A stretch of DNA of 64,000 bases, taken from assembly GCF_028583425.1 (NCBI RefSeq), contig NC_072790.1:10646552-10710551 (forward strand). The letters are read 5' to 3'. This DNA comes from Eublepharis macularius. Its lineage: Eukaryota; Chordata; Lepidosauria; Squamata; Eublepharidae. The position numbers were made by a program, and so were the translations under genes. The notes beneath the pieces were generated by a model that had not been told where the DNA came from, searched no databases, and saw only the letters and a list, made by a program, of their open reading frames with translations. Below are positions 37,401-63,879 of this stretch, piece after piece. The stretch's first letter is position 1; each line of letters begins with the position of its first letter.

Positions 37401-40400
37401 TCAAAGGATATAACGTCTACTCCCCTCCCTATGAGAGCTGCCCACCACTGTTCTGAAGCTGCTGCCATGTTCAATTGCACTGTTGCACTTTCTGTAATCA
37501 ACGATATTGCCGCCACCAAGAAAAGAGTGCTGCTATTTTTAATGTCTTTATATAATGTTTTTAATGTTTAATGTTTAATGTTTAATGAAATGTTTTAAAT
37601 GTTTTAATGTTGTTATCCGCCCTGAGCCTGCTTGCGGGGAGGACGGAATATAAATACGATAAAATAAAATAAATAAAATAATGATTCTATGATCCTTGTG
37701 CTGCAATGTCAGCTGATAGGAAAGCAATGTTTTTCTGAATCTGCACAGCCAATTAGACCTCCAATGGCCAATCAGAAGCCCTGCTAGGCAAAAGGCTCAC
37801 CTGGCTCCACCCACTTTCTAAAAAAACTTTTGAGGGTTCCAGGAAAGGTGTCAGCATGGGCCAAAGTGCCATCCCTGTTGGAGATCCCTGGATTAGAATG
37901 TCTCTCTTCTCCCCACTTCAGTCTCTTCCTTGATAATGCAACCATGGTGGCTGCATTTGCAAAAGAAAAACATGTTTAAAATAAAACATGAAAGGAACTA
38001 TAACCTGTAGTTGATTCCTCAAACAAATACAGCTTGTGCAACTGTAAACGTAAACAAGGAAGGCTGGCCGTAGAGGCACACTGTTTGGTGACAGCAGAAT
38101 AAAAGCCACTGTTTTGTGCACTGAGAAACTGCAACGCTAGTAGAGATTAAAGGTGACTGTATCTCAAGGCAGTATATTTTGCCTTGGAGGGGGGCTTTTA
38201 ATGGATTCCTGGTTACAGAGAAGGACAAGCTTTTCCTTGTGGATTAGCATAAAAAGATGTATCTGGAGCAATTCCCTACGATCCGACATTAAGGTATTCG
38301 TCAGCTTCCCTCCACTCCTGCGACTGCAGAAGCCAAACTTTAAGAAAATCCATTCTTTAACTGCTGGCAGGCTTCTGACAGGCAGCTTCCCATCTGGGCA
38401 GACCTGAAACCTGCCTAAGGTGTTTTGAAGCACTGTCTATAGTTGGCTGCAGCCATACGGATTAAACTGCAATCCTATAAACATTTCTTTGGAAGTGAGC
38501 CTCACGGAACACAATAGAACTTACTTCCAAAGAAGCATGCACGGATTTCGGTTCTGAATGTCAAAAGCTACTAGCCTAGGATCTAATCAACCCAATATTG
38601 GTGAACTTATCTTTCCTCTCCAGCTTTTGTAGACCAGTAACTTCTACATGATGCAGGTTTAGCTATATAAATTTGGAGAATTACCAGTGCCAAGTAAGAA
38701 TAATCTCCTGGCAATTCTTTCTCCCTCCCCAGCAAGGTAGATGGGAGATCATTCTTCTTTTCTGTTCAGGAAGCTAACACACTGCAAGTTATTCATTTCC
38801 ATTATATAATAGTAACTAGAAAGCTGTGAGCAGATCGTGATTTATCAGATGAGATGGGGGATCTACAACTGGAGCCCCCAACCTGTTTCAGTCTGCAGGC
38901 ACTTTGGGAATTCGGACACAGGATGGTGGGTGCAATCACAGAGAGGACGCCCAAGTACATGGGGGAAGGGGTAATTTAAATAATACATTAAATAAGAGGG
39001 GTAATTTAAATAATACATTAAATAATACATTAAAAATAAGAGGGGTAATTTAAATAATACATTGGGAAAGAGGAGTGAGAGAATAAAACCAGCGCTGTAG
39101 TGGCAGCTGCCGCTGAAACCAAGTTATTTTGATCTGCCCAGCCAATTGGATCTCCAGAGGCAGATCTGAAGCCCTGCTGGGCAAGAGCCTCACACACCCA
39201 CATTATAAGAACATTTGGTGGGTGGCAGGAAAGGTATTGGCAGGCACCATGGCATTCAAGAGCATCACGGACACAATTTGGGGAAAATACCATCTTGCCT
39301 CTGTTCCCTTGCCTGTTCAGGTCACTTTAAGATGTGCCCTTTCCCTCTTTGAGAACTGTCTGGATGTTTTTTGGGTTCCATTTGAAGATGTCCCATCCCT
39401 ACATGCTCACATCCTAGTTTACCTCAACAAAGGCTAGCCCATCAGTTTTGCTCTGGCCAGGTGGCAGAATTAAACCAGGATATCTGTATTCATATGTCGC
39501 ATGAAACCATAGTTAAGAGTAACTGTGGCTAATAAACCAACTTCAACCCATGGTTTCAGATCATGGCTTGCTAGACTTAACTAGCTGTCATTAGTGGTGA
39601 GGGCTGAGCTTTAGTGGAAAGCTCACCCCCTGGAAATCTAGCTGGGCTTTGAGGTGCTACTGGACCCAAATTTTGCTCTCACACTAACCACAGTTAGCTT
39701 AATTGAACCAAGGTTTCATACAACGTCTGACCCAAGCCCCTGTCACTTCCCAAGTGTGCCAAAGGAACATTTCTTTGAGTAGGATTATTTATACAGTTGC
39801 CCACTCAAGAGAAAGAAATGGCTCCACTGACTAGAAAGTTGGACCTAGTCAAAATAAAATTCTCTAGGAAACAAAGCAATGTGCCATGAGATAAGATTTC
39901 CAACAGGCCAGATCTCGCTGCTGGGGAGAAAGGGGCTCCTGCCTTTCCCTTGCACAGTTTTTCTGAGCCAAAATGCCCCAGATGAGGGGGAAGGGGAGTT
40001 GCCTGCCCCATTTTGGAACTGCATGTGTAGAGAATACAGAGCAGAGACAGAATCATGGGAAAGACTAGAATAACAGGTAAACCCTGACAAACGTACTATG
40101 CAATTCATTAATCCTATTGTATAAAAGGCTAAGTGTATTCAAGACAACTCACTTGCTACCCTGGTGCACCTCCAGAGGGTGCTGCTGTGGAGGGAAGCCC
40201 AGATGAGGCAGCCGGACCTTCAGAGCGCACACCATGGTGGGAAGCCCAGGCTGGGATCAGGCGTGGAGCAGGTGGCAATGCCTGCCCCCGCCTTCACCCA
40301 GCTGGAATCAGGAGCGGAGCAGGTGGCAATGCCTGCCCCCGCCTTCACCCAGCTAGGATCAGGAGCAAAGCAGGTGAGAATGCCCACTTCCCCCTTCACC

Positions 40401-61933: not shown

Positions 61934-63879
61934 TCCTCTTATATAAAAGGCTAAGCGTATTCAAGATAACTCACTTGTTACCGTGGTGCACCTCCAGAGG
62001 GCACTGCTGTGGAGGGAACCCCAGATGAGGCAGCAAGACCTCCAGAGAGCGCGCCACGGCAGGAAGCCCAGGCCAGGATCAGGTGTGGAACAGGCGGCAA
62101 TGCCTGCCCCCTGCCTTCACCCAGCTGGGATCAGGAATGGAGCAGGTGGTAATGCCGGCCCTCCGCCTTCACCTAGCTGGGATCTGGAGCGGGTGGCAAT
62201 GCCTGCCCTCTGTCTTCACCCAGCTGAGATCAGAAGTGAAGCAGGTGGTTATGCCCATCCTTCACCTTCACCCATCTGGGATCAGGAGCGGAGCAGGTGG
62301 CAATGACCACTCCCCATCTTCACCCAGCTGGGATCAGGAGCAGAGAGGGGGCAATGCCTACGTCCCACATTCACACAGTTGGAATCGAGAGTGGAGCAGG
62401 TGCAATGCCCGCCCTCGCCTTCACCCAGCTGGGATCAGAAGAAGGTGGCAGTACCCACTCCCCCTTCACCTAGATGGGATCAGGAGCAGAGCAGGTGGCA
62501 ATGCCTGCCACCGCTTTCAGCCAGCTGGGATCAGGAGCAAAACAGGTGGCAATGCCTACCCTCCGCCTTCACTCAGCTGGGATCAGAAGTGAAGCAGGTG
62601 GCAATGCCCGCCTGTCCTTCACCCAGCTGGGATCAGGAGGGGAGCAGATGGCAATGCCCGCCCACCGCTTTCACACAGCTGGGATCTGGAGTGGAGCACG
62701 TGGCAATGCCCATCCCCTCTTCACCCACCTCGGATCAGGAGCAAAGCAGGTGGCACAGGTAGCAATGCCCCCCTCCCAACTTCACCTGGCCAGGATCAGT
62801 CATGGAGCAGGAGGCAATGCCCACCCCCTTCACTTGACTGGGATCAGACGAAAAATAGGTGACAATGCCCACCCCCCTTCACCCGGCCTGGATCAGGCAC
62901 AGAGTAGGAGGTAATGCCCACCTCCTCATCACCTGGCTGGGCTCAGGCATGGAGCAGGTGGCAATGCCCACCCCCCAACTTCACTCGGTTGGGATCAGGT
63001 TTGGAGCAGGAGGCAATGCCCACCCTAGTTCAACTTGCTGGAATCAGGTGCAGTCAAAACTGTGAACAGAATAAACTGTACAGGGAGGGAAAATACTTAA
63101 GTCAAAATCAATATGAAGTAAGTCAAAAGTATCAAATTCCAAAATTACTATGTATTTCCACAATGGAAACATATAAAGTATATACTTAAATAATGTAGTC
63201 TAGCAAACATCTTCATAAGGCAAGCTGCTGTTACGTAACAATGCCATACCAGTATACAATCCAACAGGTGAGGTCCAATAAGTCCAAAGATTCCAAATCA
63301 AAAATAGTCCAAAAAGTAGGTAAATGAAAGTAGCAGGGGATACTCCGTAGGACACTGAATAATCAGTGTTCTCTTCTTTCTTCTTTTACAGGTGTAGGTA
63401 GTGTTGGAAGAAACGGGACGTCCAAAAAGACACACCCGAATCAGGTGCAGAGCAGGCGGCAATGCCCCCTGCCCTGATTCACCCGGCTGGAATCAGTTGC
63501 AGAGCAGGCGGCAATGCCTGCTCCCACATCACCCGGCTGGGATCAGGCGCAGAGCAGGCAGCCATGTCCGCCCCTTCACCTGGCTGGGATCAGGAGTGGA
63601 GCAGGTGGCACTGCCCGCCCCCCTTCACTCGGCCGAGATCAGGTGTAAAGCAGGCGGCAATGCCCACCCCTTCACCTGGCTGGGATCAAGCACAGAGCAG
63701 GTGGCAGTGCCCTCTCCCCTTCACTCGGCCAGGCTCAGGCACAGAGGAAGTGGCCATGCCCGCCCCCCCTGCCTTCATTCAGCTGTCGTCAGTGACGGAG
63801 GAGGAGGGACTGCCCACCTGCCCGCCCTCCCCTTTCTAGAGCCCGTTGCATTTTCCCCCACAATGTGCTTTGTTGCTAG
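61934..63879 (+). mobile_element. Non-autonomous Helitron with internal minisatellite, copy 3 (largest)
   Basis: The 5' end is TCCTCTTATATAAAAGGC after a host A (61933). The 3' end is an imperfect hairpin around AGCCCGTTGC...CAATGTGCTT, then TGTTGCTAG ending at 63879 before a host T. It holds roughly 19 ~50-bp units in 62072-63050 and about seven more in 63440-63790, split by an unrelated insert. Bounds are confirmed by comparison with the uninterrupted hAT copy at 21721. Confidence 0.92.
63054..63437. mobile_element. 384-bp insert of unknown family inside Helitron copy 3
   Basis: AT-rich, unlike the surrounding repeat, and flanked by a 13-bp direct repeat GAATCAGGTGCAG (63041-63053, 63438-63450). 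It starts TCAAAACTGTGAACAG and ends AAAGACACACCC. I see no poly(A), inverted ends or similarity elsewhere in the window. The direct repeat could also be minisatellite sequence. Confidence 0.6.

Follow-up and report, generated by a model that had tools for sequence, protein, structure and literature searches.

When a mobile element carries a minisatellite, does the repeat array grow at each site after insertion, or is its length set before the element lands? The question is raised by three elements in a 64,000-nucleotide stretch of the Eublepharis macularius genome (the window; contig 1, C1:10646552-10710551), which an earlier note had taken for a Helitron family whose body is an expandable minisatellite of ~50-bp units. 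Helitrons are thought to spread via rolling-circle copying. On searching the whole assembly (2,236,738,225 bases, 72 contigs), we consider it likely that the three belong to a family of non-autonomous canonical Helitrons with a ~51-bp minisatellite core, in which unit number changed mainly in source elements or during copying, with fossil decay following insertion.

All three elements are complete, and their boundaries coincide exactly with those first proposed. Copy 1 (40112..40784, plus strand, 673 bp) carries its array of ~51-bp units at 40254..40725, copy 2 (51879..52629, minus strand, 751 bp) at 51940..52485, and copy 3 (61934..63879, plus strand, 1946 bp) at 62076..63819, with arrays located by unit matches and those of copy 2 converted from reverse-strand coordinates. 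Each element begins with TCCTNTTNTATAAAAGGC, giving a TC start, and terminates with TTTGTTGCTAG, giving a CTAG end. The common 5' module that had been noted is present in all three and measures ~133 bp; the final 48 bp, which form the 3' tail, are likewise shared (40737..40784, plus strand; 51879..51926, minus strand; 63832..63879, plus strand). The 5' terminal ~44 bp of copy 1 (40112..40155, plus strand) are of a kind also found in two helicase-bearing relatives described below, the Rep/helicase relict and locus L078. Unit counts were taken from hidden Markov model (HMM) segmentation with a unit profile of 51 positions, which gave 10, 11, and 27 units for copies 1, 2, and 3, while raw matches gave 9, 11, and 27; the initial estimate of about 9, 11, and 26 therefore holds for copy 2, is reproduced for copy 1 by raw matches alone, and falls one short for copy 3.

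The array of copy 3 is interrupted at 63054..63438 (plus strand) by a foreign interspersed repeat of ~385 bp, recognized by its genome matches (25 match rows genome-wide including the window's own, 24 of them elsewhere). GAATCAGGTGCAG flanks this insert on each side and represents either a target duplication or the phase of the units. Some genome copies of the ~385-bp repeat occur as close inverted pairs, such as C1:212929597 (+) and C1:212930203 (-).

Within the shared tail lies a 10-bp stem that stops 10 bases short of the 3' end, as expected of a canonical Helitron. In copy 1, where 40745-40754 pairs with 40765-40774, the hairpin is clear (-10 kcal/mol, z -4.84), and in copy 2 it is weak (-4.1 kcal/mol, z -1.84, with 12 of 200 shuffles as good). 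The earlier note had assigned a 3' hairpin plus CTAG to every copy; CTAG is indeed universal among the three, and the hairpin grades from clear through weak to decayed in copy 3. Across 20 tails chosen from 40, three of them from helicase-bearing relatives, 90% of stem cells are paired, compared with 23-49% when the stem is slid.

These ends recur far beyond the window. A 24-mer from the 3' end, CCCTCCCCTTTCTAGAGCCYGTTG, has 786 exact occurrences in the genome and 0 in the reversed control, so its recurrence is not due to chance, and the large genome family anticipated from three copies in the window is real; virus and prokaryote collections returned 0 matches to the same 24-mer. Because its first eight bases are missing from the helicase-bearing relatives that were read, the 24-mer marks mainly the minisatellite-bearing type. 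Over the initial 73 Mb of contig 1, 10 of the 59 listed 5' ends pair in the right order and within at most 8 kb with one of 100 listed 3' ends, delimiting elements of 430-2903 bp, and among the matches listed none pair in the wrong order. The TC and CTAG borders, which had been put forward as the test of the family, hold up in 24 aligned copies, 20 of which start with TC and 21 of which end with CTAG, so that the 5' TC and 3' CTRR of canonical Helitrons are found in the family, all three window copies included. At C7:5706321-5706660 we observed six exact Helitron 5' ends, each preceded by G; the spacing is 43 bp in four of the five steps or their parts, and one gap measures 149 bp. This is a tandem array of the Helitron 5' terminus itself.

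Insertion between A and T is equally consistent. The exact 5' end TCCTACTATATAAAAGGC is directly preceded by A in 2140 of 2296 occurrences (93%; another base in 156), and the exact 3' end GGGCTTTGTTGCTAG is directly followed by T in 2035 of 2106 (97%; another base in 71), where both counts take in other elements sharing these ends, such as L078, and leave out copies in which the string is altered at any position. The TT or T-rich target of Helentrons and DINE elements is thus not what the flanks show. Copy 3 lies in an interspersed repeat, and an uninterrupted relative of that repeat at 21714..21913 (plus strand), aligned across the junction, retains A|T intact as an empty site; seven further matches, 70-75% identical, cross the junction as well, and next to it some of them are gapped or have different bases. 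Another repeat hosts copy L006, and seven matches cross its junction, the best two (L060, L056) without gaps at 91%; the row from L069 at this junction is just its own left flank running into an element. Among 23 copies (L053, whose 3' end is lost, being excluded), 21 have A before the element and 22 have T after it, with exact flank repeats of 0-3 bases. Together, the end counts and the empty sites bear out the proposal of A/T insertion without target duplication. We also noted ATA at +4 to +14 in 19 of 22 downstream flanks and in 1 of 22 at +24 to +34 (22 distinct exact 3' ends, from the window and the fetched loci); an A/T-patterned target side after the T is a possible insertion-site preference.

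Non-autonomous elements call for a helper, and the earlier note had suggested looking for an autonomous element with the same ends. PF14214 (Helitron_like_N), searched against the genome, produced 14 match rows, and 12 Rep loci were read with ~1.5 kb on each side. One of the 12, on contig 6, bears the family 3' tail as well as the family 5' end 4.7 kb upstream. This relict, C6:76530638-76535329, matches positions 3-46 of the 5' profile (E 2.9e-6) and positions 43-93 of the 3' profile (E 4.4e-11), with reading frames broken by many stops. Of its six separate pieces, one scores above the PF14214 cut-off and one above that of PF05970 (PIF1); three others match PF14214 or PF05970 below cut-off, and the sixth has a match to a viral helicase model, also below cut-off. 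A relative with Rep, a PIF1-type helicase, and the same ends was therefore found, in decayed form. Its helicase DNA yielded 43 genome match rows (best 40 of 69 candidates scored), and five of six fetched helicase 3' flanks (L072-L076) show the same tail followed by T, the sixth (L077) being without it. L078 combines both family ends with a helicase remnant and has no ~51-bp array evident by eye; no array of ~51-bp units was detected in the relict C6:76530638-76535329. The relict was also tried as the seed of the unit and rejected, as its best local matches (score 14) were no better than shuffles (13 to 23 of 300 as good). Within the relict's 5' non-coding region (end of L071 and L010:116-230), a 115-bp stretch occurs twice, ~1 kb apart, at 83% identity, and this region seems itself prone to direct duplication. 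Elsewhere, L009 (C2:75287604-75288119) holds a Rep domain in an uninterrupted frame of 302 residues; being only 42-50% identical to the relict over short translated stretches, it probably belongs, on this comparison, to a different Helitron family, perhaps a younger one.

The ends, the A|T empty sites without duplication, and the Rep/helicase relict that carries both ends together establish the non-autonomous Helitron family that had been proposed. One might instead suppose that the copies are no Helitrons, and that segmental duplication or some other class of transposon dispersed a minisatellite whose flanks are conserved. The tandem-repeat interior and the lack of any transposase gene seen in the copies would fit, but the borders are sharp, insertion is between A and T, empty sites lack a duplication, and a Rep/helicase relict bears identical ends; we regard this explanation as extremely improbable.

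How, then, do the arrays come to differ? We compared 471 units from 24 copies. This set leaves out L062, whose array is split by a 4.4-kb gap, L007, a locus without a 3' end, and L043, which is the L070 copy, along with L054, L055, L063, L064, and L066 (5' module absent in ~6 kb upstream) and L044, L045, and L047-L050 (5' module absent in 1.5 kb). Where the profile match fell short, manual placement was used for the starts of L005, L008, L052, L053, L056, and L058 and for some ends. The sample is biased in that L002-L006 and L008 were chosen by likeness to the copy 3 5' module, and L046 and L051-L070, all on contig 1, by the exact 3' 24-mer.

Units of different copies are on average 0.764 identical, and neighbors (lag 1) within a copy 0.780, so that units are not clearly more alike within an array than between arrays, as they would be in a variable number tandem repeat (VNTR). 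Neighboring units diverge by ~22%, which argues against fast slippage. A unit's own copy beats an equal-sized random draw from other copies at a rate of 0.539 overall, 0.464 in subfamily A, and 0.468 in subfamily B (W2, L051, L052, L053, L056, and L057 were excluded from the subfamily draws and from the age correlation given below). Units in the same place across copies are more alike than other units at the array ends (first, 0.807 vs 0.767; second, 0.828 vs 0.790; last, 0.808 vs 0.736), and this excess is small further inward, except at the fifth unit from the 3' end (0.806 vs 0.778). Within subfamily B, long blocks remain in order: units 29-37 and 40-43 of L065 match units 4-16 of L070 at 0.92, amounting to 13 collinear units, and L046 and L070 have 16 units in common at 0.90. 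Since the within-copy excess is weak and sister copies keep ordered blocks, the arrays look mainly inherited and changed by block gain or loss, and change in unit number may have taken place in source elements or during copying.

Several observations pull the other way. As many as 40.1 of the 471 units find their best match in their own copy, where 24.5 are expected. Unit pairs at 0.96 or more are enriched at short range, with 5 of 1269 at a lag of 3 or less compared with 88 of 104,919 between copies; seven such pairs lie within a copy, five of them in L067 and one each in L051 and L065. Alone among the 24 copies, L067 shows a long recent duplication of local origin, with a two-unit step: its units 2-4 and 4-6 are 0.98 identical. 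Of its 38 units, only 13 are matched strictly better by a unit of a sister copy; the corresponding figures are 28 of 43 for L065 and 23 of 27 for L061. From the own-copy excess, the short-lag pairs, and L067, some local unit duplication does happen, and these tests are blind to later deletions. Unit order exceeds all eight shuffles in 69 of 276 copy pairs, with ~31 expected by chance, and is therefore clear only among close relatives; among distant copies it is lost, reshuffled, or undetectable. As for the Helitron assignment, the copy 3 hairpin has decayed (-1.8 kcal/mol, z -0.33, with 72 of 200 shuffles as good), and the stem shows no covariation beyond shuffles in the 20 of 40 tails, so the hairpin call is based on complementarity and position. 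No intact helper with the family ends was found among the 40 candidates scored per search and the Rep loci, most of which were read for ~1.5 kb on each side.

Were the minisatellite expandable in the sense that slippage or unequal exchange acts at each site after integration, every copy would be a VNTR. The range of 5 to 43 units (in the 14 usable copies of 20 retrieved through the 3' 24-mer together with ~6 kb of upstream sequence), the L067 duplication, and the short-lag enrichment all fit such a process, which nevertheless appears quite improbable, as the within-copy excess is small, neighbors differ by ~22%, and more divergent copies do not have more units (Spearman -0.29, p 0.25, 18 copies). 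What the earlier note called expandable is thus only partly supported, by local duplication as in L067, and expansion after insertion lacks support as a general rule. A different account has template switching or gene conversion exchange blocks among copies or rolling-circle intermediates, which would turn the arrays into mosaics of a family-wide pool. Best matches of L065 units are spread over L067, L070, L061, L068, and L046, and units are held in common, yet most copy pairs lack order above shuffles. Against this stand the long ordered blocks of subfamily B and the place-specific end units, and common ancestry with block loss and decay yields a similar picture; we therefore rate general block exchange as unlikely.

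The likely course of events, as we see it, is that the family was moved in trans by working relatives of the Rep/helicase relict via rolling-circle copying, and that most change in unit number arose in the source lineage or in the course of copying. Such change would proceed by deletion, duplication, or unit exchange, with recombination, slippage, or template switching in sources or intermediates as candidate routes, and each insertion would then mostly decay as a fossil without on-the-spot expansion. Unit variants are common to different copies, close relatives retain unit order, end units hold their place, and whole-unit blocks vary between them. A more specific and rather doubtful idea is that rolling-circle copying itself reshuffles the array, misalignment or template switching dropping, adding, and swapping unit blocks, perhaps across the intermediates of different copies, so that a shared pool of variants is frozen on insertion.

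Other features of the window include five minus-strand reading frames, at 893-1477 (in which AMOP was found), 8770-9156 (in which TSP_1 was found), 9856-10191, 16201-16551, and 49274-50110, which we take to be exons of isthmin-1. On that assumption, exon 1 would have copies 2 and 3 on its upstream side, and the first intron would contain copy 1. Several long, imperfectly palindromic stretches, with 80-90% self-complementarity by BLAST, are present at 179-340, 7590-7867, 9254-9628, 10215-10474, and 60281-60490 and are perhaps foldback elements or resemble miniature inverted-repeat transposable elements (MITEs).

Among vertebrate Helitrons, HeliBat and Heligloria have TC/CTAG ends, an AT target, and many non-autonomous copies, a likeness drawn here by description only, and we know of no minisatellite core in either. 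The layout of conserved end blocks around a central array of variable length is also that of Helentron and DINE-like elements, an agreement of architecture alone that is no proof of membership. The Helentron type prefers a TT or T-rich target and has subterminal inverted repeats, whereas the gecko family has TC...CTAG ends and A|T insertion. DINE-1, DINE-TR1, and HINE, which are non-autonomous Helentrons found in flies and other animals, likewise place end blocks around a tandem-repeat core and share with the gecko family high copy number and a 3' palindrome (PMC9957191, PMC4067079); some DINE-TR1 cores have turned into satellite arrays. The DINE-TR1 unit is ~150 bp, compared with ~51 bp in the gecko. 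Pacific oyster Helitrons and Helentrons with CgiSat cores also contain tandem monomers, up to 89 in one element, which are mostly 160-180 bp, in some cases stand alone, and occur in a mollusc host, unlike the ~51-bp gecko unit (PMC8268682). One review also covers this architecture in oyster Helitrons (PMC10048060), and another regards Helitrons as a source of satellite-like arrays (PMC9659126). Helitron-2 of Drosophila virilis is a long Helitron whose 5' part contains 154-bp tandem repeats, and its truncated derivatives are abundant (PMC3833285), in contrast to the gecko Rep/helicase relict, which has no detected ~51-bp array and whose best unit-like stretch is not above shuffles.

We recognized no prior description of the gecko family in the openly licensed literature, a weak negative. 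The architecture is known from insects and molluscs, and the gecko family adds a reptile example among canonical Helitrons, with a short unit. These findings suggest that some minisatellite calls in gecko genomes may be Helitron interiors. If insertions freeze their arrays, the changes that tandem repeats undergo in transposition could be read, separately from later slippage, in many copies of different age.

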